The position numbers were made by a program, and so were the translations under genes. 64,000 nt of DNA from Rugalucina vietnamica (Eukaryota; Mollusca; Bivalvia; Lucinida; Lucinidae): positions 14,255,957-14,319,956 of the forward strand of contig OZ024874.1 of NCBI GenBank assembly GCA_964017185.1. The letters are read 5' to 3'. This document shows, piece by piece, positions 3,638 to 63,735 of this stretch (within the stretch, counting starts at the first letter, position 1; every line of letters begins with the position of its first letter). Under the pieces are notes generated by a model that saw only the letters and a list, made by a program, of their open reading frames with translations, had not been told where the DNA came from and made no database searches.

Positions 3638-3780
3638 CTGAGCAACCCCCCTGGTGGACTGTAGGAGTAACAGTGTAGATCTGTATACTCCTGTTGTAAC
3701 ATTATGGCTAAAATAGCTGCTGTTCCCGCACCCAGGGAATGTCCTACTAGCACCAAACCATACTTCTCTGAACTTTTCTC
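3638..3780 (-). CDS. DAGLA: Diacylglycerol lipase exon: nucleophile GHSLGAG
   Basis: Most downstream exon visible. It translates to 47 codons plus 2 nt and contains [18 protein letters not shown], the GxSxG nucleophile elbow of the lipase; its serine corresponds to Ser472 of human DAGL-alpha. It ends with [12 protein letters not shown], closely like the vertebrate [11 protein letters not shown]. The Gly-Ala after the motif (GAG, not GGG) favours the alpha over the beta paralogue. The acceptor is a TTTTTCAG and the donor is GTAATG. It joins the 4667 exon in phase 0. The enzyme cleaves sn-1 of diacylglycerol to give 2-arachidonoylglycerol at the plasma membrane. The catalytic Asp and His should lie in later exons outside the window. 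A family A element ends 90 bp downstream and a fold-back MITE starts 30 bp upstream. Confidence 0.93.
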
Positions 3781-3809
3781 CTGAAAAACGAAATCAAAAA
3801 TGCTTTATT

Positions 3810-4005
3810 TGAGCTGCCACATGGGAAAACCAACAATCTGCATAGGCGAAAACAAAGGCTTTGTTTTCGCTACATGAATGGTACAATTCCTCTACTTTCT
3901 AAATCCAAAATTTCCCGTCTCCAGCCATCTTCTGTGCTTGTACAGCTTGGTTTGTGTCAGACCTGGTCGGAAACCACATTGTTGGTTTTCCCACAAGGCG
4001 GCTCA
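3810..4005 (+). mobile_element. Fold-back MITE, central hairpin lost
   Basis: The ends are TGAGCTGCC..GGAAAACC and GGTTTTCCC..GGCGGCTCA. The central GATCAGC hairpin is missing, leaving AACAAAGG joined directly to CTTTGTTTTCGC. It starts 30 bp upstream of the 3638-3780 exon's acceptor. Confidence 0.8.
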
Positions 4006-4079
4006 TTTATTAACATGTAGCTTATGATGTTTTTATTTTCACGAGTTGTTCCAAGAGCTTATACGATTTTAAAGTGTTT

Positions 4080-4180
4080 TTATTGTCACCTCCACTTGAC
4101 CAGTTTTGTCCCATTTAGTTTTGTTGACGGAACATGGAACCAAAATGACCTTTGCCACAATATTTTTACAGATAAAATAC
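4080..4180 (+). repeat. Dispersed repeat, also near 24246-24350
   Basis: The segment with CACCTCCACTTGACCA, TTGACGGAA and ACCAAAATGACCTTTGCCAC recurs in the same orientation near 24246-24350. Its nature is unknown and the ends are not defined. Confidence 0.55.
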
Positions 4181-4666
4181 TTTGACCATGCTGCTTGAAC
4201 TCACATGACTTGATCAAGCATATATTGTTATTCAGACACATATGTGATAGACTAGTCCTACAGTCATGTTGTTCTCTTCTCTTCCTACTTCTTGATATTT
4301 TCATATCACATAATATGGCAAAACTGAAGCCTATAATAAATTCAAACAATCTCCATATCAAGTCACCAATAAACAGCCAATGTCGCGTCTCAACTGCGGT
4401 CGTCCTACAGCCAATTTTTCTTGGAGCTGGTTAACTAGCACAGTTATTTGTTCATAAAATCAAGCTATGGCTACATCTACTGAAAATAGCCATAGAAAAT
4501 AGTTTCTACAGCATTTATATAACTGATTGACGTAACACTAAATGCCATGATGGTGTTCTAATTTAGACTGATTAAATTCCAGTTTCTTACACATGCTGGA
4601 TTTAAAGAATTCACTTGCATGGACATGGCCTTTCGTCATAGTTATATGGGTGCATGTTTTACCTAC

Positions 4667-4747
4667 CTTAGATTTTTCAAAAGCTTTTGTGAGAATATGA
4701 TCTTCTTTGAGCTTCTTCTTGATATAGATTGCTGCCTGCACCATACC
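4667..4747 (-). CDS. DAGLA: Diacylglycerol lipase exon: helix before nucleophile
   Basis: Exactly 27 codons, reading GMVQAAIYIKKKLKEDHILT followed by KAFEKSK. This matches the vertebrate stretch HKGM..A.YIKKKL....LSQAF between the hydrolase beta-strands. The acceptor is CCTTTCAG and the donor is GTAGGT. It joins in phase 0 on both sides: the upstream exon ends in HK, giving HKGMVQAA, and the downstream exon begins with EKSSEKYG. It belongs to the alpha/beta-hydrolase core. Both borders and the neighbouring protein sequence agree, so the call is firm despite its shortness. Confidence 0.92.
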
Positions 4748-4910
4748 CTGAAAGGTTAGGAAGAAGATGGCAGATAAGTCTTGGGAATTGGTAAGCAGTG
4801 CAGAGCCAAGGAATGACTGACCTCGAGGTCCTCAATCACTCTGCATTCCATGAGAAAGGGGGATTTCTTGTAAAAAGAAAATCCTCTTTGGTTTGTCTGT
4901 CTGTATGTAC

Positions 4911-5692: not shown

Positions 5693-6426
5693 ACACATAC
5701 TGACTACAACAATTTCAGATGACTAAATATGGAAAATACTGCAAAGGTTGGGAACATTGGTTTAAACAATATTGCGCTCTGGGATAATTTTGTTTATTTC
5801 TCCATAAAACATCTGACCAGCACCAACACATAGCATGAGAATAATTCACTGGAGTGCATCAAAAAGTGTTCTTTAAATTATGTCCCAGTCAATATTCTTG
5901 CATTGCCTCGAAATAAGTTATCGCTCCAGATTGATCCATCTGGCTTACAATCACAGCATTCCATTTTGCCAAGAGTTGTGTGATGTTGCATTAATCCGCC
6001 CCGTAATGAACTTGGCTGCATCATGGGTATACAGGGTGTCTGTTTCATCATGTCAAAAAAAAAAAAAAAAAATAGCCATGTTTTCACTAACAAAATCAGG
6101 GTCGGTAGATAGGGAAATCTTTTTATTTTTTCTTTAATTTTTATTTGTTGAAAACAGGTAAAAATTTATAATATGCAACTTAATTCATCTCAAACACTAG
6201 AAAATGACAGACATTGAGGTTTAAAATATAAAGAAAGTTAAAGTGACTTTAAATATTATTTTTGCAGTTTATACGTCTATTTACCTGAAAGTTTCAAGGG
6301 TCAGTAGGAATGAAAATCTTTTTATTTTCTTTTAAAATGGCAATAAAAACTGCAGGTTCCGGCACAAAAAATCAGGGTTAAACACAGCTATTTTTTTTTC
6401 GGCCTAAAGGACAAACAAATTCCCAC
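5693..6426. other. DAGL intron remainder, nothing recognised
   Basis: Apart from an A-run at about 6055-6071, I see no exon or known repeat here. It lies between the 4667 and 6427 exons. Confidence 0.5.
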
Positions 6427-6588
6427 CTTATGTCCTATCCAATCTTCTTTGACAGGATCTAGGGGTAGAGTCTCAGCATCAGCCTTCAAGTCTGTGAGCA
6501 CGTCCTGTAGGGAGAGGGTCCCTCGTACACATATCACAACCTTCTTGTACTTGTTGTCTAGGGCAACATAAAAAGGTGTCTCTCCTAT
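6427..6588 (-). CDS. DAGLA: Diacylglycerol lipase exon: hydrolase strand region
   Basis: Exactly 54 codons. It begins IGETPFYVALDN, then KKVVICVRGTLSLQDVLTDL, and ends DWIGHK. These match the vertebrate ETPFYVA.DH...KVV..RGTLS..D.LTDL..DAE..P..GHKGM. The RGTLS segment contributes to the active-site pocket of the class-3-like lipase fold. The acceptor is CCAATTCAG and the donor is GTGGGA. It joins in phase 0 upstream to ..YHVD and downstream to GMVQAA. The LQDVLTDL wording is closer to DAGL-beta, whereas the surroundings are closer to DAGL-alpha, as expected of an invertebrate sequence. Confidence 0.94.
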
Positions 6589-6589
6589 C

Positions 6590-7086
6590 TGAATTGGAAA
6601 GGGAAAACTATGTGCATGCAAGAGAGAATCCTTAAACCACACAGCATCAAACACAATGTTGTTAGTATTTTTTTTTCTTTTTCTCTCTTCCTTTCATTTT
6701 ATGTGCATGTATTTGCTCAACATTTGTTGTGACTCTGTTTGTAATTGTACATGTTATGAACAATAAAGGAGTATAGCATAGTATATCATCAGCCACCTAA
6801 CGCACCAGTTACACAACGTCGTCGCATTGACAAAACATAACGGCGAACAGTGTTCTGAGTAATGCCTGCCCATTCCTGCCTGAGAGCAATTTCCAATTGG
6901 CGGATAGTCTGTGGTTGCATGAACTGGGCGAGCATGGAGTGGCCACACCCGCTATTGAGAACTCTATCCATTTCTCTGTGGTGTGTCTCTAAGCTAATCG
7001 TGCGATTTTATTCTTGAGACAGTTATTCTCCAAGTCAATACATCATTAACTCTAAAGACTAGAATTTGTTTTCTATGTGAAAACTG
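6590..7086. other. DAGL intron remainder, nothing recognised
   Basis: I see no exon or named repeat. Short open frames on the minus strand (6754-6971) have no recognisable motif. Confidence 0.45.
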
Positions 7087-8298
7087 ATGTCTCCCCCCTT
7101 TCTACGTGCATGTCCAAAATATGCAAGCAAGAGTTATAGTTCTTGTGCATCACATATCCTGTCATTCTGTTTTATAAGTGTACCAAGTTTCATTGAAATA
7201 TCTCTTACGGTTTTCAAGTTATAGAGCGGGCACGAAATTGTATGGAAAATAATCAAAGGGAAATAACTCCAACGATATGAAAGCAAGAGTAATGATTTTT
7301 GTGCATCATGCTTTATAAGTGTACCATGTTTCTCTAATGGTTTTTGAGTTATAGAGCAAACACAAAATTGTACGAAAAATAATCAAAGGGAAATAACTCC
7401 AAAGATATGCAAGCAAGAGTTATGGTTCTTTAGCATGACACATCATCTCATCATGCTTTATAAGTGTACCAAATTTCATTGAAATATTTCTTATGGTTTT
7501 CAAGTTATAGAGTGGACATGAAATTGTATGGAAAAATAATCAAAGGGAAATAACTCCAAAGATATGAAAGCAAAAGTTATAATTCTTGTGCATGACACAT
7601 CGTCTCATCGTGCTTTATAAGTATACCAAGTTTCACTGAAATTTCTCTTACGGTTTTCAAGTTATAGGGTGGACAGGAAATTGTATGGAAAATAATCAAA
7701 GGGAAATTACTCCAAAGATATGCAAGCAAGAGTTATGGTTCTTTAGCATGACACATTATCTCATCCTGCTTTATAATTGTACCAAGTTTCATTGAAATAA
7801 CTCTTACAATTTTCGAGTTATAAAGCGGACACGAAATTGTATGGAAAATAATCAAAGGGAAATAACTCATAAAATACTCAAGCCAGAGTTATGGTTCTTG
7901 TGCATGACACATCGTCTGATCATGCTCAATAAGTGTACCAAGTTGTATTGAAACGGTTTTCAAGTTATACAGCGGACACGAAATTGTATCGAAAATAATC
8001 AAAGGGAAATAACTCCAAAAATACTCAAGCCAGAGTTATGGTTCTTATGCATGACACATCGTCTCGTCATGGTTTACAAGTGTACCAAGTTTCATTAAAA
8101 AATCTTTAACGGTTTTCAAGTTATACAGCGGACACGAAATTGTATCGAAAATAATCAAAGGGAAATAACTCCAAAAATACTCAAGCTAGAGTTATGGTTC
8201 TTGTGCATGACACATCGTCTCGTCGTGGTTTACAAATGTACCAAGTTTCATTGAAAAATCTTTAACGGTTTTCAAGTTATAGAGCGGACACGATTTGT

Positions 8299-22040: not shown

Positions 22041-22826
22041 TCTACAAAACACATGACGTCATGTCGCATTGACCTATGACGTTGGCCAAAACCCATATTC
22101 AAACGGCACATGAATTTCATGATTTGAACATGGGTTTTGCCTTTTGCACACCGCTTTCTACCATTTGAAAACGACTTCAAACAGCTACGCACATAGATAT
22201 CGTATGCAAGAATGTGGGTTCCTACTAACTTCAAATAGAACCATGTCTATTTAGTTCTATTAGCTGTGATGATGAGCATGTTTTTGAGACTTTTGAGAAT
22301 ACTCCAATAAATTTTTCATGAAGACAAATTCAGCAAAACAGCAGAATAATTCTCAAGGCGATATTTATTGTTTTGTGTTGGAGGTGATCAATCTTCTTAA
22401 CTCATATTTAGTTCTGCAAAATTAGGAGAGAAATTCCCCTCGGCGACAAAATTGATTTGAACACATCGAAAGTAAAAACAAGAAGATTAAGCCTGAAAGT
22501 TTTACCAATATGCAAAGAACCGAGAACTGAGATGACAACCTAAAACACTAAAATCTGATCAGCACCATATACACATATAAACGCTTTAGTTTCTACAACC
22601 AGCTGGCCCTGAGGTTATAAAACTTTTTCAAGCTCAGCTCAGCTGAGCCTGAAATTTCAACTGCTCATAAATGTTGAAATAATCAAAATTAGTGGAAAAT
22701 TCAGGTTTAAAACTCAAAAACTAGTAATTCATCCTGCTCATAAATGTTAAAATGCCAACAATTGTTGGCATTTTAACATTTATGAGCAGGATAAAGGCGT
22801 AGGTGCACGAACCGTCGAAATCGGCC

Positions 22827-24240
22827 CTGTAAACGCGGGAAAAATCAAAATTAATTATGATTAGGTATGTTGATGTTAGTCACACATTCAAACATTCTAG
22901 TTTCAGAAACCGTTTAAATTTTCAGGCTGCGTCCATTGACATGCATGTAGTATGCCCTCAAAGTTACCTAGGTTAGGGCATTTTTGTGATTTTCCGTCGA
23001 TTTCGGGCCATTTGGGACTTAAACAAACATAGAGCGCATCGAGGTTACAACACCATTTTTTCACAGTCAAGTCCATTTATCGATAGAAACCGGTAGCCAA
23101 AATATAAAATTGTAACCTACATGCGCTCATAGTTAAAAAAAAACTTTTCCCATATTTTTCCGTCTATTTCAGCACACGTAACGTTACAAACGGTGCGGAA
23201 AAATAACGCGCTAATAATGGACGTCACGCGATATTATAATTGACGTCAGACTCACGTTCACGCACCTTGCGCACCTTATGATAAGAAAGTATTGATAGAA
23301 AGATAATGTTTGCCGTATATACCTACCATCAGGTAGAGAATTCTGTCTTTCTTTTGTCTGAGGTGTTTTTCGTTCGATCCATGATAGTTACTTTCTTATC
23401 GCAAGGTGCGCGATTTTTAATTGTTTTCTAAAACCATCGCAAAATATGCTCCTGTCTATGATTTGAGAAACACACTTCAATGTAGCTTTACAAAATCACC
23501 ATAAAGGCTTTTTAACGAAACTTTTACTCAAACTCAATAACTAGAAACAATATGTTCATTGTCAGTGCGCCCATTGCTACAAAGACAGATTGCTGCTACA
23601 CGATCACCAATTTCGTGATTTTACTGCTTAGTTTACGCCTCGGATACATTTGGCCTAAGATTAATTTGCAATGATCGTACGATGCCTTTTTTTGTGCTGT
23701 CTCCTCCGCAGTGTGACCCTACGATGCCCCTACGATTCTATGGCTTCCTACGATCTCCGTAGCCTCTACGATTTTGTAATAGTCTGCATTTTGACAATAG
23801 TTTAAAAATCATACAACGGTAGCCCGTAGTGGCATAGCACGGGTGCCGTACAGAGACCCTGCGATGATCTTGCAGTCACCGCACGATTTTTGTATTTTGA
23901 TTTTGGGACAAAAATCGTACGACGGTCGTAGGGAGACCGCAAGGGTTCAGTCAGCATTCATAGGGACTCCGTACCGGGACATCGCACGGGCTCCGTACGA
24001 TCGCCACTTAAAGTGTGCGGAGACCATACGATTACCGTACGATCTCGTTGCGATTTTGTCAGAGAACTTCGACGAAAACCACAACAAGAAATCGAAGGCA
24101 CACGATGCCTGTGTGTATTGTTACCACAGACGTCGTAGCACAAAGACACCTACGATGTATACACTTGACACTCGTACGGCGGTAGGGGCATGCAACCTAG
24201 GTATAAGCCATTGCATAAACACAATGTCTTGGTACAGTGG
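22827..24240. other. Left interior of the 8-kb block
   Basis: No gene is recognised. A 24-bp inverted pair (GCGCACCTTATGATAAGAAAGT type) at about 23268-23290 and 23388-23411 encloses about 100 bp and could be a small insertion. From about 23660 to 24200 the words TACGAT, ATCGTA and CGTACG recur densely without a fixed period. The 178-codon open frame there (23843-24379) has no recognised motif. Confidence 0.5.
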
Positions 24241-24245
24241 TCGCA

Positions 24246-24350
24246 TTGTTTATTATCACCTCCACGTGACCAACATTGTCCCGTTCATCTGTTTAATTGA
24301 CGGAAGACGGTACCAAAATGACCTTGGCCACGATACGTATTGGCATTATA
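24246..24350 (+). repeat. Dispersed repeat, partner of 4080-4180
   Basis: Shares CACCTCCACGTGACCA, TTGACGGAA and ACCAAAATGACCTTGGCCAC with the copy at 4080, in the same orientation. Confidence 0.55.
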
Positions 24351-24695
24351 CCACGCTTCTAGTCTTAACTAACTTGTAAGTTATGCATGACACCGTATTG
24401 GCGAAAATTATATACAAAATGAAACAAAACTGTCCCACTGAAATCACATAGATATTTCACCAAAAGGAAAAATATCATTTGCAAATAATTGAATATTGAA
24501 CACAACAAAACAACGAAAGCTGTTTCGTTCCCTACTTCTTGGTGTTAAGGAAACAGTTTGAGATATGATTGGTGTGCGTACGTGCGATGGTTTGCTCTTG
24601 TCTCACATTTATCGAAACCATCCATAAAACTACGCGTCATGTCACTTGATCGGCTGGTTGAACAACTTTTTGTTTTATTGAATGTTTTGTAAATA

Positions 24696-24826
24696 ACTAG
24701 CGCCTTTGTTTTCGCTATACTCTTCTCGTTAAATCTGAACTTCTAAACGCTTCTAGCTGTTTTCTTTGGTTGTACAGCCTGGTTTGTGTCAGGCCTGATC
24801 GAAAACCTAGATTGCTGTTTTTTTTC
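24696..24826 (+). mobile_element. Fold-back MITE fragment (right half)
   Basis: Starts at AGCGCCTTTGTTTTCGC and keeps the CTTCTAGC, TGTACAGCCTGGTTTGTGTC and GAAAACC blocks. The left arm and hairpin are absent. It is the only fold-back copy inside the 8-kb block. Confidence 0.75.
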
Positions 24827-24974
24827 TGAATTAGATTAACAAGTGTCATAGAAAAATGTTCAGTGTCTATGACCATCCTCGGATGGGCCGTAAGACTTTT
24901 ACTTGTTAATAATTTTCAAGGGAGGCAATAACTATCTCTAAAAGAATGTGTTACAAAGTGAACTAGAAATGCGT

Positions 24975-26475
24975 GTTTGTAAAACACTATGCCCCCAACT
25001 GTATGCTTGTGCCTAAACTGGCAGTTTGTATGATTCATTTATTTCATTCGAATGCAGTCAAATTTAATTTCCTGAAGAAGCTGTTCGGTTGTGTCTGTTT
25101 TGACCTTGATCCAGAAACAGAATGTAAGCTTTTTTGCAGGCGAGTTAGAAATGAAGTAAAAATTTAAAAAATGAGTAATTTTGTCAAAATTTGACAGAGA
25201 GTCCTCAAACGTTAATCAGGTGATCTTCTTCTCAGCCCCAACCAGCATACCAAATATGAAGGCTCTAGCTTGCTAGCTCAAATAAGTTTTGAGATATCTT
25301 GCACACAAGATTTTCAAAATTTCTTTTAAAAGGGACATTATTCCAACAAGGGGCATAACACGTACATGAAAAAAATACAGGCCAACTATTTTTTTCATGA
25401 GGAATCTGTATATGAAATTTCAAAACCCTATAATTCACCGTTCAAAGGTTTTAAATTTCACCGAAAAGTGGAAAAATCAATCAAAATTTCAAAATTCTGT
25501 ATTTTTGTAAAAATGTGACAGAAAGTTCTCAAAAGTTAATCAGGTCATCTACTTCTCAGCCCCAACAAGTGTACCAACTATGAAGGCTCTAGCTTTAATA
25601 CTTTTTGAGATATCTTGCACACAAGATTTTCAAATTTTGTTTTCAAAGGGACATAACTCACAAAAGGGGCATAACTTGGCCATACAAAAAAATACGGGTC
25701 AACTATTTTATCATAAGGAATGTGTATATGAAATTTCAAAACCCTAGCATTCACCGTTCAAAAGTTTCAAATTTCACCGAAAAGTGGAAAAATCAATCAA
25801 AATTTCAAAATTCCGTATTTTTGTTAAACATTTGGCAGAAAGTTCTCAAAAGTTAATCAGGTCATTTACTTCTCAGCCCCAACAAGTTAACCAAATATGA
25901 AGGCTCTAGCTTCAATACTTTTTGAGATATCTTGCACACAAGATTTTCAAATTTTGTTTTCAAAGGGACATAACTCAAAAAAGGGGCATAACTTGGCCAT
26001 ACAAAAAAATACGGGTCAACTATTTTATCATGTGGAATGTGCATATGAAATTTCAAAACCCTAGCATTCACCGTTCAAAAGTTTCAAATTTCACTGAAAA
26101 GTGGAAAAATCAATCAAAATTTCAAAATTCCGTATTTTTATTAAAACTTGACGGAAATGTCCCAAAAGTTAATCAGGTCATCTACTCCTCAGCCCCAACA
26201 AGTGTACCAACTATGAAGGCTCTAGCTTAAATACTTTTTGAGATATCTTGCACACAAGATTTTCAATTTTTGTTTTCAAAGGGACATAACTCAGAAAAGG
26301 GGCGTAACTCGGACATGAAAAAAAATACGGGTCAACTATTTTTTCATGAGGAATGTGCATATGAAATTTCAAAACCCTAGCATTCACCATTCAAAAGTTA
26401 ACACACACACAGACACACAGACAGACAAGCCGAAAGCAATATGCCCTTCCAACTTTTTCAAAGTTGGGGGCATAA
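24975..26475 (+). mobile_element. HINE/pearl-like element, family C
   Basis: The 5' motif ACTATGCCCCCAACT is followed by four core units of about 316-325 bp, each with AATCAGGTCATCTACTTCTC, TTGAGATATCTTGCACAC and GGGGCATAACT. A (CA/GACA)n stretch lies at about 26400-26430. The 3' hairpin is made by CCAACTTT and AAAGTTGG inside ATGCCC..GGGGGCATAAAA. It has the same layout as families A and B with unrelated sequence. Confidence 0.75.
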
Positions 26476-26479
26476 AAAT

Positions 26480-27358
26480 GTATGTTAAAATGCTGTACAT
26501 ACTGGTATATATAAATAAAATCGTTAATAAAAAATGAGCTAGATAATAATTTAGAAGAACCTAGAGCTTTGGACGATCATATGTGAACAATCCATTTACC
26601 TTCACCATTTTCATTGGAAAACCATTTTTGTGAAGACTATTAAAAAGGGAAACAATGTAACTCAGCTTGCTATATCTCGGTTGAGTTTACGGGTGCTCCC
26701 GGACACAACAAACAGCTTCCTACTACGGTCAACACAGGAATAGGTAAAAGTAAGCATTATATAGCATCTCACCATGTTTGTATTTACATGTAGCTGCAAA
26801 CTGTCAGTTGGAAGTACATTACATAGATCAAACATTCCACTGAACTCAATGTCAAGAATACCGGTATTTGGATGAAGACGCGTTGTTTCTGGATTTGTGA
26901 TAGCTGTGATGACAACTCAAGTTCTCTTTGTCAAGATTTTAGTTACTATACGAGTATTGCGCAGCTTCGTTGATGTATTTAATTTTTACTCACGAGTCAA
27001 AAATCATGTTTGGCATGTGCACAAAGAGTGATACCATATTATTGCATAAATACCCGCGTCACACGATATCAACAGCCGTTTATTAATGAAGAGAGAGTCA
27101 TGCATTAATATTGCAATTCACGCGCACACGTGCTGTTAAACATGGCTTTTACTCATGCTCGTTACCGGGCGCCAAGCAAAGCACGTGCTAGTACTGAGAA
27201 ACTGAAGTCCGCCCGGAACGGGCATAAAAAAGAAAGCGTTTACGCGTATGAAAATGTGATGAGGCTGTAAAATATATAGTGCACCATATTTCTTTTCGTT
27301 TCTGCACTCGTTTCTGCACTCGTTTCTGCAGAATTTAGGCAATAATAGCGATCAAAAA
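26480..27358. other. Interior of the 8-kb block, nothing recognised
   Basis: No coding region or known element is seen. CTCGTTTCTGCA occurs as a short direct repeat near 27308-27332. Confidence 0.4.
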
Positions 27359-27480
27359 TGATTTTGTCATTCATTAACATTCGCTAGGTCCCTCGGGGAG
27401 TGATGAAAACCTCGGGCTACGCCCTCGGTTTTCAACACTCCCCTCGTGACCTAGCAGATGTTAATGAATGGAAAATCATG
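27359..27480. repeat. Long palindrome with ~60-bp arms
   Basis: ATGATTTTGTCATTCATTAAC with CGCTAGGTCCCTCGGGGAGT pairs with its near-complement on the right (GACCTAGCAGATGTTAATGAAT), around a GGGCTACGCCC tip. It looks like a small fold-back element or the stem of a larger one. Confidence 0.8.
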
Positions 27481-27672
27481 TTTGATCTCTATAATGACAT
27501 TAGCCGGAACATGACAGGCATATGCCAGTTTTTAAATCACCACCGAGTATATCTATGTAAATGCTCCAATACCCGACAGCAGCCGGAGTTGAGCAGGTAA
27601 TCTTGAATAGACAAAGTAAACAGTAAGGACTATGTCTAGTCACAGGAACCTTACCGTTTATATATTATAATA

Positions 27673-28712
27673 TACTCATCAAAAGAAGTTTTGCACCATT
27701 TAGATTTTTTCATATTTTTAAGTGACATTTTAACTAACAAATTTTAAAGTTAGCTTTTTGAATTTGCACAGTCTGAAAAAGTTTGATAATGTGCGTGATA
27801 AGACCAAGAGTTGTTGCGGAAACGATTTGAGGAAAAATTGAAAATTCCAATTTTCTGTAAATGCTGAAAATTGGAAAATCGAAAAAATTCCACAAAAAAT
27901 GCCACAGCATCAAGAACACATTTTTGTTTCCAAATTTACACACAAGAGCTCCAAAGCTAATGATTAAGCCTAAAAACAATTTAAAAAATCTCAAAATTTT
28001 AGTAAAAATTCATTTTTTGACAAAATTGCAATTTTTGAGAAAAAAATGATAAAGATTGGTAAAAATGAGTAAAATCGAAATTCATTTCAATTTTTGATTA
28101 TTATGAGATGTTTTGACACCAGAAGTTGCCGCCTGTTTTCTTTCTGTTAAAGGCAATCTCATGTCAAAGATGTTGCATGAGGACTTTTTTGACATGCAGC
28201 TTTTTAAAAATTCTGAATTTGGATGAGTTGAAAACCAGTACTTTCAGTTAAACATTAATGGGTGCTGCATGCTGTGTTTGAAAGAAAAACAACCCATTTT
28301 ATTGGAGAGATGAGTTACTAAGCTTTATCTGAGAATTTAAACAAAATCTCAAAAATCGTTATTTTTGGTCAAAAATAGTGTTTTTGTCAAAAAAAAATCA
28401 ATTTTTAGTTTTTTGCTTTAAATGATTGCTTTCAGTATCCCGAATGAGGATGTGAAACGAATTCGGGGTTGGAAGCCCAGAAATAAAGATATGGGCTTTT
28501 TGCTGCATCCCAAATTTTGGTGTTTTCAAAAACATGCATTTTTGCACATTTTTATTTAATCTTTTTTAGAAGAAATATTGATTTGTCATTCAGGAAGTCC
28601 AGCCCTTTAAGATGGTATTCAGTTTTAAAAGTTTATTTGAAAAATGTCTATACTAGACATTATTTTAAAATGAGAAAAATATTAACTGGTGCAAAACTTC
28701 TTTTGATGAGTA
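27673..28712. mobile_element. mariner-like MITE, 1,040 bp
   Basis: The 25-bp inverted ends TACTCATCAAAAGAAGTTTT (then GCACC) are identical at both termini and flanked by TA. A TA target and ends of this kind fit the Tc1/mariner superfamily. The interior is very A/T-rich with no transposase. Identical ends suggest it is fairly recent. Confidence 0.88.
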
Positions 28713-28767
28713 TACATCGGATTAACTTGAGTGCTTCGAAAGGGCTTAGAACTACAGTGTTTGTTTG

Positions 28768-28835
28768 GTCGATTTTGGATTGAATGTCCCACCAACATCT
28801 AAGGTCATACAGAGACGAAACCGGATTAAAGTAAC
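28768..28835 (-). mobile_element. SINE 3' fragment
   Basis: In complement it reads CTGTATGACCTTAGATGTTGGTGGGACATTCAA, the shared core and tail of the tRNA-derived SINE family. The head is missing. Confidence 0.55.
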
Positions 28836-29727
28836 AAATCTTCCAGACAATGTAGGCATTTTAAAGTTTTTTTCAGTCAGCGTTGAGAATTTACGCCAGA
28901 CCAAGAGATTGCGATGTGGTCGTCTTAAAGCATGATTGTCGTCATTTATACATGTATACATGTACTTCCTGAAAAAAAGAGGTGCGATTGGAATCTCTGA
29001 AGTGATCGTATCTATACCAGTCAGCATAGATGACCACACCATTAAAGCTCTGCTAGTGGCACGGATAATTCTCCATGATAGCGGTTCTCTCCTTTGCAAA
29101 TCTCCATTTAGGATTTGTATGTTTCTATTTGCTTTGCTGCAATGAAGCTGTCTTGTCATGATGCGAGAACGGAGCGCCGGTTGCAGGAATCAATCGTACA
29201 GGCAAAAATCATGATTAAAGCTGAGCACGAGAATAATGAGAAAAGCACGATACGTCAGAACTGGTGTTAGTCTTGTTTGGCAGAGCAAATACTTGTTGTA
29301 TCTTCTTCTTTACCTGATACTCCGTAGGAAAAAGAACAAAGCACAACGCTTTTTCAGCGCTTTTACAATGATTTTATTAGAATATGGACCCGATGACTAC
29401 TTTTAAGAACACCATTATAACGCTTTTAATATTTCAAGTTTTAAAGTCAATATGGTGAATATTAAACACAACTTAGACAGTCATTACTTCAGGGTTCGTC
29501 TGTCCAGTTATAAACATATTGTTTTAAAGTTTTAATGATAATTAGGGGCCTTAATAAATTAATTTAGCCCTTTGACAATATATCAACATCATGAAAATGA
29601 ATGTGACCACAAATTTTACTACAAGGGGAAAAACTCAACAAGACAATCAAAAGTCAAGAAACGTTTTTTACAAAAAGAGGGAATACTCCTACATGTAGGC
29701 CTATGCAGTAAACAATAATTATTCGAT
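28836..29727. other. Interior of the 8-kb block, nothing recognised
   Basis: Two overlapping open frames on opposite strands (about 28750-29160) show no recognisable domain. No known repeat is seen. Confidence 0.4.
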
Positions 29728-29845
29728 CATCAGGAAAAGATGTCCGCTAAAGGTATAAACTTATATAAAATAAAACTGGGGTTTACAGGCGTATTATATA
29801 TTTTTCTTACTTTTGCTCGGAAACATAGATTGTGCGTACTCATAT
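29728..29845 (-). mobile_element. CATTACG MITE, one half
   Basis: Begins CATCAGGAAAAGATGTCC, keeps AAAACTGGGGTTTAC and ACATAGATTGTG, and then stops before the central palindrome. Confidence 0.7.
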
Positions 29846-29938
29846 ATACTGTATATTGTATGAAAACATATAGCCGCTTTTCGAGGACCGCATCTAAAGA
29901 TTGAGAAAGAAGGTGACCCTTGATTTGTTATCATCTTC

Positions 29939-30005
<67 letters not shown>

Positions 30006-30006
30006 A
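29939..30006. repeat. (AAAT)n microsatellite
   Basis: About 17 uninterrupted AAAT units. Confidence 0.97.
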
Positions 30007-31194
30007 TTAAAAACGAACAAAAACATATGACATAAGGCACCCCATTTTATGCAATTGTATACTGTACCTGCGTGCGACGACTGATGGGTGGCCTACAATA
30101 CTTGCTTTCAAAATGATTAATTTTTTACGCCATTCCGGCAAGACGCTATCTGAACCCTACACAGCGATGACTTAGATGAGACTGCGTAGATTATAAGAAT
30201 TATTTTGCTAACCGCAATTATTTTGACTACGGAATGGTTGCCGTGTCCCTGTACATGTCCGCGCAACCGAGTCTGTCATAATTTAGAAACGTGACAACAG
30301 AATTATAAGAACGTTTAAACTATCCTCATATTCTCCATTTTATTAATAAATTGTACGGATGTGGGTGTGAACATGTATGGGAGCGTCGGAAGTTCAACGG
30401 TAATCAGGAAACATTGCAAAAATCGACTGAAAAATAAATGCTTCTGTTGGGGCACTTTTAAAGGCGGGTAGGGCTTATCGATCAGGGTGCTGGCGATCAT
30501 CTCACGCCAACTGTAAGCATTTCGCCAAAGTCTTGATTCCTCGCAGACACTTTAGTATCGGTTATTGTGCCGAATCACAAATGAACCTTCGTAACGTCTA
30601 TGACGTTAACATTTACACTATATACATTACGTTATTTTACGTCACAAAAATGGATAGGGGTATGTCTCTTTGTAACACCGTAGCTCTAACAATTTAAGTG
30701 CAATTTCAATAAAACAAGCATTTTTCTCCATCAAATTGACCCCCTTAACACATATAAAGAAAATATGCATTTCTGAGACAAGGCCGATTTCGACGGTTCG
30801 TGCACCTAGGCCTTTTAGACTCAGTTCAGCTGAGCATGAAATAAGTTTTATAACCTCGGGACCAGACCGTTGAAATCTCACGACTGTCTTTGTCGGAAAA
30901 AAGTCTGGTGTTCTTTACACGTTGGCGAACATAAAAGCCAAGAGTTTTCGGGTGACAAGATTCATTTTTTTTACATAAACAAGCTATAACCAATTAACAA
31001 ACATTTAAAAGTAAAATGAGAATGCAACAGGGACATCTCTTTAGCTGAAATGCTCGGAAACACTCATTCACTGAGTTTTAGAGCAGATATGCCATTAACA
31101 CCAACAATGCCAAAATTCATCAAGATTCAGAGCCAAGAATTTAGCAGATCAGAACCATTTTGAAGTGAGCCAACAATAACAGGAACCAGTGCCC

Positions 31195-31419
31195 GAGGTT
31201 ATAAAACTTTTTTCATGCTCAGCTGAGATTAAAATTTATCCTGCTCATAAATGTTAAAATGCCAATATCTGTTGGCATTTTAACATTTAGGAGCAGGATA
31301 AATTACTAGTTTTTGAGGTTTGAACCGAAGTTTTCCACAATTTTTGACTATTTCAACATTTATGAGCAGTTGAAATTTCATGCTCAGCTGAGCTGAGCTT
31401 AAAATAAGTTTTATAACCT
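31195..31419. mobile_element. Palindromic GAGGTTATAAAAC MITE, complete
   Basis: Ends GAGGTTATAAAACTTTTTTC and GTTTTATAACCT, subterminal CTCAGCTGAG, and the central palindrome TTAAAATGCC..GGCATTTTAA. It serves as the reference for the copy split at 22796. It stands only about 340 bp from that copy's distal end and in reverse internal orientation. Confidence 0.87.
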
Positions 31420-61881: not shown

Positions 61882-62404
61882 TAACAGTAATTTCTAGTTA
61901 CAGTGTGTGCTATATATTTCAAAATCTGAATCAGAACATAAATCCATCTAATAATCAAAATATCATGATCTTTATTACATGATTTTGTACTAATACTATT
62001 TGATTAAAAAGATTTCATGACAATATTCATAATAATAGAGTATAATTCCAGAAAATCCATAAAGTAAACAGACATTAAAGCCCCAGCATCATCATACAAT
62101 CTTTATCCGATTAAAACCAGAGACACAACTTTGTCACTGAAATGCATGGATCATCTTTGCATGTTAAAGCTGAATAAATAGTATAATTATATGTCTAGTT
62201 TACCAAACCTAGTCTTGGCAGTGTATACCGGTACTAGTTTGAATGGTAAATGGTCAGATGCCTGTAAGACAGATTTTCTCTCAGTAGATTATTTATTTTT
62301 CTGTCTCTCTTGTCCAAAGCTTGAATAACTATCCACTGGACAGATCAATGGTAGAATCCTCATGAAAAAAAAAAAATGTCTGCAGGAGTCTCAGACCAGG
62401 TCCT
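61882..62404. other. Unassigned intron
   Basis: No DAGL exon or known element is seen. Confidence 0.4.
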
Positions 62405-62635
62405 AAGGTTATAAAACTTTTTTCATGCTCTACTCAGCTGAGACTAAAATTTATCCTGCTCATAAATGCTAAAATGCCAACAATTGTTGGCATTTTAACA
62501 TTTATGAGCTGGATAAATTTCAAGCTTTGGAGTTTTGAACCTTGATTTTCCACTTATTTTGACTATTTCAACATCTATGGGCAGTTGAAATTTCATGCTC
62601 AGCTGAGCTGAGCTTAAAACAAGTTTTATAACCTC
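62405..62635. mobile_element. Palindromic GAGGTTATAAAAC MITE, complete
   Basis: AAGGTTATAAAACTTTTTTC and GTTTTATAACCTCG ends, a central TTAAAATGCCAAC/GTTGGCATTTTAA palindrome (62468-62505) and CTCAGCTGAG at both shoulders. It is in the same orientation as 31195-31419. Confidence 0.88.
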
Positions 62636-63735
62636 GGGACCAGGTTCCATGGGGTAAGCTGGACCACTGGTGAAGAAGTGAAATGTCTAGGAAAGTCAAA
62701 AAAACTATCTTGATACAGGCACAACATAGTTACTTATCACTGACAGGCCTCTTGAGTCAATCTGCACTTTTGCTATCTGCTTTTACCATGGATGCTTTAT
62801 AACACAGTCTTCAAGAAAAGTGCCGGTCTGTCCTTCAAATTCAGCAACATTTCAATCTGACTGACAAAATATTTTATTCTGTCAGACAAATGTCCAGCAA
62901 AAATTACCACAAATACAATGATAACATATAGAACTGTCCTACAAAATTGGTTTTTGTCCAACAAAAACTTGCAGTCTGCCAGACAGCTGTCCTGCAACTG
63001 AAAAAAGATTTTGTGAAGACTGATAACAGTGTCATCTTCATCTGTTGAATAGTTTTATACCCCAAGATTGTCTACATGGCTATGTCATTGGAAAACATAT
63101 CATCGTTTGTGGTATCTGGATGAACAGTGTGATGTGCATATTTTGATTCCAAGATATTCAAAAACTGATCTGACAAACTGTAATAAACTCAGGAAAAGCT
63201 AGGATACATGAAAACTAGACATGTTTTCTTGTGAAAATACTCAAGTCTCAAGCAAACAAATAATTGAGAGGCTGCACTATAGTCTGTTGACACAGTCTAA
63301 TCTCTGTCTATCACTGAACAAGATATTATTCTCAGACTGTTGACATAAATGTCAGAAAATTCAATATTGTGAGGGGAAATCTTTAATAAATTCCTCGTCT
63401 TTTAAGTGACATGCAACGAGTTGGAATGTGACGCAATGCCACAGTAACATGCTACATGTAGGATGCAAGACTCAAACCAGTAAAGGCTGTCAAGAAGGGC
63501 TAAAACTGAGCTATGAACTATCTTCAGTTGAAATAATATTAGTTCTCCGATTAAAAGCTTGGAATCATAAACCAGTGTCTTTATTACTGCTCAGATCAGA
63601 ACGAATGTCCCTATAGCATGTATAGGTTTAACTGTCTGCTGGAATAGAAAAAGACAAAATTGATTGCAAGCTTGTGGTCACTGATGTAACTCATCTTGCC
63701 AAAGAGTCTCAAGAAAACAGGGGGAGATCATCATA
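62636..63735. other. Unassigned intron
   Basis: No exon with DAGL similarity is seen on the minus strand. The open frame at 62797-62997 (minus) and that at 63428-63616 (plus) have no recognisable domain. Confidence 0.4.

Follow-up and report, generated by a model that had tools for sequence, protein, structure and literature searches.

A large non-coding transposon family in the bivalve Rugalucina vietnamica with the ends and AAATTT target of the Spy group

Introduction

Within the PHIS superfamily of transposons, which unites Spy with PIF/Harbinger and ISL2EU, the defining features of Spy elements are an insertion site inside AAATTT and the lack of a target duplication, whereas ISL2EU elements carry 2-bp AT duplications (PMC4482050). 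Repbase classes Spy as ISL2EU (PMC12730594). Spy has been reported across animal phyla, the five elements that were tested having a transposase of ~700 amino acids (aa) and terminal inverted repeats from 15 to 467 bp long, and in human cells the insertions of cgSpy are at AAATTT-type sites and show no duplication (PMC11304231). Here we describe an 8,017-bp block in the genome of the lucinid bivalve Rugalucina vietnamica, situated in a stretch of 64,000 nucleotides (assembly GCA_964017185.1, contig OZ024874.1, positions 14,255,957 to 14,319,956 of the forward strand; “the window”). It is very probably a young member of a cut-and-paste family in the Spy group, one whose copies are large, non-coding and non-autonomous and would be mobilised by a Spy transposase from elsewhere.

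The window family resembles Spy in its terminal inverted repeats, its insertion into AAATTT and its lack of a target duplication, and the same genome holds relatives with a DDE transposase of ~700 aa. It differs in having no transposase gene, in its size, considerable for a non-autonomous element (the ends listed below pair at a median spacing of 6.4 kb), and in that the transposase of most partners reads as two open stretches, whereas a solitary open reading frame is reported for cgSpy and cvSpy (PMC11304231). With ISL2EU it has superfamily and transposase domain type in common, but the 2-bp AT duplications of that group are not seen. Helitrons, which insert at an A/T junction, leave no target duplication either; their ends read TC...CTRR, without terminal inverted repeats like those of the window family, which span 35 bp and read GG...CC.

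Results

The block in the window and its host site

The termini of the block are inverted, GG...CC, with mismatches at position 4 (G vs C) and position 32; in 100 shuffles of the window the 20-bp end had a mean of 0.00 chance matches. An initial annotation, made from the letters of the window, had reported 31-bp inverted ends with one mismatch, a length of 8,017 bp and the exact splitting of a miniature inverted-repeat transposable element (MITE) with no target duplication. Length and both end positions were verified, and the 31-bp ends are as described, the pairing extending to 35 bp with a second mismatch. The left flank stops at ...GGATAAA and the right one starts TTTTAG..., and the joined flanks match two related MITE copies in the window: 62399-62643, at 89% identity with no gap around the junction, and 31192-31419, at 90% with a 5-bp gap starting 5 bases right of the junction. 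In neither comparison is a base duplicated or lost at the junction; since both copies run through the insertion point, the site before insertion read AAATTT, and the clean split of the MITE is borne out. That the ends are common genome-wide, that two further insertions are nested in the block and that its junction reads AAA/TTT (the slash standing for the element) had not been noted initially.

Copies in the genome

A 34-base pattern, AAA plus the end, was searched in the 1.09-Gb genome with up to three mismatches, and 132 places were found (68 + 64), against 0 + 0 for the reversed control. Among the 100 end places listed, 72 face inward in 36 pairs, with a spacing of 451 to 13,727 bp and a median of 6,426 bp; the only other neighbour pairs under 15 kb were one “--” and one “-+”, and 28 ends had no partner within that distance. 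Many copies of the element's first 2 kb exist in the genome, the nearest at 95-98% identity (a lower bound, from the best 40 of 3,385 candidates scored).

From these places and matches 35 loci (L001-L035), a part of those listed, were fetched. Both ends are present in 31, which together with the window copy make up the set of 32 copies used below; L028, L031, L032 and L034, with a single end each, were excluded. Divergence of the left part from the window copy falls at 1.4-2.4% in 24 loci and at 10.8-12.5% in 8 (L017, L027 and L035, with matches too short for the comparison, are omitted from this measure).

Target site

The ends of the 32 copies were placed by a pattern without the flanking AAA (those of L035 by reading), and in 31 of the 32 the flanks read AAA/TTT. 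Paralogous sites without the element were sought by comparing joined flanks with the sequences analysed (at least 78% identity, at least 25 bases spanned on each side of the junction); they were found for 8 of the 32 copies, and in 7 of these 8 the site is AAATTT without duplication. The window copy, L006, L013, L018, L027 and L033 each have at least one AAATTT paralogue with no gap closer than 12 bases to the junction, and L007 has a gapless one of only 63 bp, in its own flank. Tandem repeats in the copy's own flank provide the paralogous sites of L006, L012, L033 and, in part, L018. The clearest empty site belongs to L018. This copy interrupts the 316-bp tandem repeat also found nested within the window copy, the match, 96% across 401 bp, being exact where the flanks join. 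At the junctions examined we found neither a 2-bp AT duplication, as in ISL2EU, nor a 3-bp TWA duplication, as in PIF/Harbinger.

Other pairs of the ends at variable spacing, and empty sites for inspection, had been named in the initial annotation as ways to check its reading, with an absence of further ends or a duplicated target as evidence against it; the 36 inward pairs among the listed places (0.45 to 13.7 kb), the 132 end places and the seven AAATTT loci with nothing duplicated all came out in its favor.

Relatives that encode a transposase

A genome search with DDE_Tnp_4 (PF13359; best 150 of 415 candidates scored, and compared with the list of ends by eye only) pointed to a 6.5-kb element on C17 that contains two frames of 724 aa. 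With 64 of 262 candidates scored, the C17 protein matches 68 stretches of the genome, among them about twenty copies of a two-part gene. Its parts are separated by 363-514 bp in the 12 copies measured, a layout that suggests an intron, although in three copies (845-872 aa) the frame stays open from one part to the other. The partner transposases have matches to DDE_Tnp_4. Motifs with D, D and E, which we presume to have their usual roles, occur in the C17 protein and, divided between the two parts, in L041. We would place these transposases within the Spy clade.

The ends of these relatives are in the same register as those of the window family: AAA followed by GGGCTAAGTCCACGAATGG...GCCCTGTA in L040 and by GGGCTTGGTTCACAAATGG...GGCCCTGTA in L041, compared with GGCCTAGGTGCACGAACCG...GGCCCTGTA in the window family. 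Four kinds of partner end are identical to the window left end at 20-25 of 37 bases; among unrelated AAAGG sites in the sequences compared, the best is identical to it at 18 of 37. With one mismatch allowed, AAAGGGCTNGGTNCACNAA occurs at 82 places (5 in the control), 32 of them of transposase type, 46 of window type and 4 other. When one further end from a three-mismatch search is added to the 32, 29 of the 33 transposase-type ends have a transposase match no more than 9 kb to their inner side (all 68 matching stretches counted); within 15 kb there is none at any of the 46 window-type ends of this search or of the 100 listed ends of the 34-base pattern.

Transposase sequence is likewise missing from the copies of the window family that were fetched, a part of all pairs, and this includes L035, the smallest divergent pair (4.1 kb). 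Neither in the window nor in L001-L035 did tblastn find a match to the C17 transposase at E up to 10. With the transposase pieces of L037, L040 and L041 it gave nothing in these sequences at E up to 1, apart from a match of E 0.43 in the single-ended L034.

Both junctions could be read in six transposase-bearing copies, and all six have AAA/TTT; four of them (L040 and three further two-part copies) were located by patterns that include AAA or TTT, and the C17 and C8 elements independently of these. The C17 element sits in the same dispersed repeat, and at the same AAATTT, as L013 and L040. Of the 17 paralogues of a copy on C1 at 97.36 Mb, the two best have one additional A at a distance of three bases from the junction, and all 17 have a gap within 12 bases of it.

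Interior of the window copy

Alignment to the other copies (pieces of at least 100 bp, loci L001-L034) resolves the window element into a family core of ~5.5 kb (element positions 1-2167, 3679-4877 and 5917-8017) and two nested insertions (Table 1), the limits of which are approximate. Among the fetched copies, in pieces of that length, the former insertion is inside the element in none and the latter has no piece at all. By its structure nested insertion 2 is probably a Tc1/mariner-like element.

The initial annotation had seen no transposase or other long coding frame in the block, and this was borne out. The longest open stretch is 192 codons (23801-24376) and has no coding signature: substitutions are spread over the codon positions as 42:43:44 in 24 copies, including that of the window, and stops occur in 17 of the 24 (an imperfect measure, the cut not being forced into frame). 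It was therefore rejected as a gene. The block has 44 open stretches with a length of 55 aa or above, and their only Pfam matches were marginal, to two families with one stretch each (E 0.0038 and 0.0045).

Table 1. Positions of the transposon, its ends, target halves and nested insertions, and of the MITE that it interrupts, in the window
Feature	Positions	Strand	Basis
Non-autonomous Spy-type transposon (probable), 8,017 bp, ~5.5-kb family core plus two nested insertions	22796..30812	.	Ends and their pairing, family, junction
Left terminal inverted repeat, 35 bp	22796..22830	+	33/35 paired with right end
Right terminal inverted repeat	30778..30812	-	
Left target half, AAA	22793..22795	+	AAA/TTT in 31/32 copies
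Right target half, TTT	30813..30815	+	AAA/TTT in 31/32 copies
Nested insertion 1, ~1.5 kb, four tandem units of 316-317 bp	24963..26473	.	Alignment breakpoints, approximate; repeats
Nested insertion 2, ~1.04 kb, with inverted ends that start TACTCATCAAAAG and a TA at either side	27673..28711	.	Alignment breakpoints; ends read; inverted arms
Host MITE, left part	22611..22795	.	Outer limit from the initial annotation; joined flanks match 31192-31419 and 62399-62643
Host MITE, right part	30813..30857	.	Outer limit from the initial annotation; joined-flank match

Other observations

The repeat of nested insertion 1 also carries inverted TATGCCCCCAAC...GTTGGGGGCATA motifs, and nested insertion 2 has inverted ends TACTCATCAAAAGAAG and no recognised coding sequence. 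The dispersed repeat ATCCGAAATTTCAAGCTTCTAGC, which occurs in the window at 3859, 13249, 15308, 18275, 33402, 54441 and other positions, is the one that serves as insertion site of L013, L040 and the C17 element.

The C17 element itself is a Spy-like palindrome of 6.5 kb (L036 1463-7960; G000:C17:12734500-12743900), with two near-perfect 3.1-kb arms, each carrying one of the 724-aa transposase frames, around a 355-bp spacer. A second copy lies at G000:C8 ~32671.3-32678.0 kb (L038, L039, L056) and has one of its two genes broken. At both loci the junction reads AAA, then GGACTAGTC...GACTAGTCC, then TTT, and since C8 matches the C17 spacer region (96% over 1,049 bp), it would seem that the palindrome moved in its entirety, as a single unit. 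These palindromes were rejected as partners of the window family, the ends having 12 of 37 bases in common with the window end, near the background mean of 10.7. The C17 transposase had no match among solved structures.

Two places of ~75 bp (G000:C2:69795641-69795715 and C6:36547061-36547136), obtained from the three-mismatch search, the control of which was noisy, have two kinds of partner end facing inward and are possible minimal Spy MITEs.

Discussion

We file the window family as a non-autonomous Spy element since its ends and insertion target agree with those of the group and the transposase gene is lacking; the membership is thus claimed on ends and target only, an autonomous member being one with a DDE transposase of its own. 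The best reading of the copies is that the family has been active recently and would have been mobilised in trans by its transposase-bearing relatives. A Spy transposase encoded elsewhere in the genome would act on the ~35-bp ends, and the element would be cut out and then joined into the middle of AAATTT, leaving no duplication; the window copy would have jumped in this way into a MITE containing ...GGATAAATTTTAG..., and the two smaller insertions would have entered it afterwards. Both the trans-acting transposase and the duplication-free joining are suggested by the anatomy of the copies and by the cgSpy experiments, and the manner of strand cutting in this scheme is likewise our supposition.

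The initial annotation had offered two explanations, an undescribed large non-autonomous element or a block moved by recombination. The former holds as to size and lack of autonomy (many end pairs, empty sites without duplication, no transposase), but the block is not a new kind of element, the kind being already in print as Spy. “Undescribed” could hold at the level of the family: a literature search over titles and the starts of abstracts brought up no recognisable paper on large non-autonomous Spy families. As for recombination, dozens of copies at different sites, alike in both ends and in the target hexamer, do not agree with it. If the rival is widened to include gene conversion or an assembly join, with no transposition at all, the window site without duplication and the 28 listed ends that are unpaired under 15 kb would fit, but the 36 pairs, which carry these ends at different sites, the shared hexamer in 31 of 32 copies and a host MITE that is intact over the junction leave next to no chance for it.

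A closer rival is that the family belongs to another PHIS group, either ISL2EU, with an AT duplication, or PIF/Harbinger, with a TWA duplication, and that its duplications have decayed. GG ends are usual for the group treated just before Spy in PMC4482050 (apparently ISL2EU), Spy and ISL2EU cluster together (PMC12730594), and DDE_Tnp_4, matched by the partner transposases, is a model common to these PHIS groups. Even so, 31 of 32 copies read AAA/TTT and gapless AAATTT paralogues exist for seven loci, so that nothing was duplicated, and decay could hardly have yielded the same outcome in copies that are only 1.4-2.4% apart, which makes this assignment very unlikely. The element could also be autonomous itself, by way of a spliced or unfamiliar protein, given that the 192-codon stretch is open over at least 130 codons in several other copies and that much of the interior is retained across subfamilies ~11-12% apart. 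Against this stand the even codon-position substitutions, the stops counted (by the imperfect frame measure) in most copies, the two marginal Pfam matches and the tblastn searches, in which the C17 protein found nothing and the other pieces matched only a single-ended locus at E 0.43; we regard autonomy as more improbable still than membership in another PHIS group.

Several observations weigh against the assignment to a non-autonomous Spy family mobilised in trans. One copy of the 32 (L019) is flanked by TTG/TTC, the gapless paralogue of L012 reads ATACTT, and some further paralogues of L006, L027 and L033 have different hexamers. Among the relatives, the right junction of L040 (after base 7222) reads TTTTTT where 21 of 21 paralogues have TTT; the three extra T run counter to strictly duplication-free insertion, slippage in the T run being a simple explanation that may apply. 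The initial annotation had also proposed a search for a related autonomous element; among the transposase-bearing relatives found, whose ends are related, none has ends identical to those of the window family, the nearest differing at about one third of 37 bases. With only 64 of 262 candidates scored for the C17 protein, a transposase may have been overlooked, and the three-mismatch search for partner ends gave 156 places against 1,266 in the reversed control (only near-exact places, and right-end places beside known transposases, were used from it).

These large non-coding Spy elements may form a long-lived lineage that has handed on its ~5-kb interior to two or more other subfamilies (which differ from the window copy by ~11-12%), perhaps since parts beyond the 35-bp ends serve mobilisation or make a functional RNA; we consider this reading unlikely.

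The seeming oddity of the window block, inverted ends without a duplication, is thus explained by a known transposon group, and Spy-type elements in this genome include large non-coding derivatives. Annotation that demands target duplications or a transposase gene would overlook such derivatives. Their insertions into the MITE and other repeats give clean empty sites, and these are a direct natural test of duplication-free integration.

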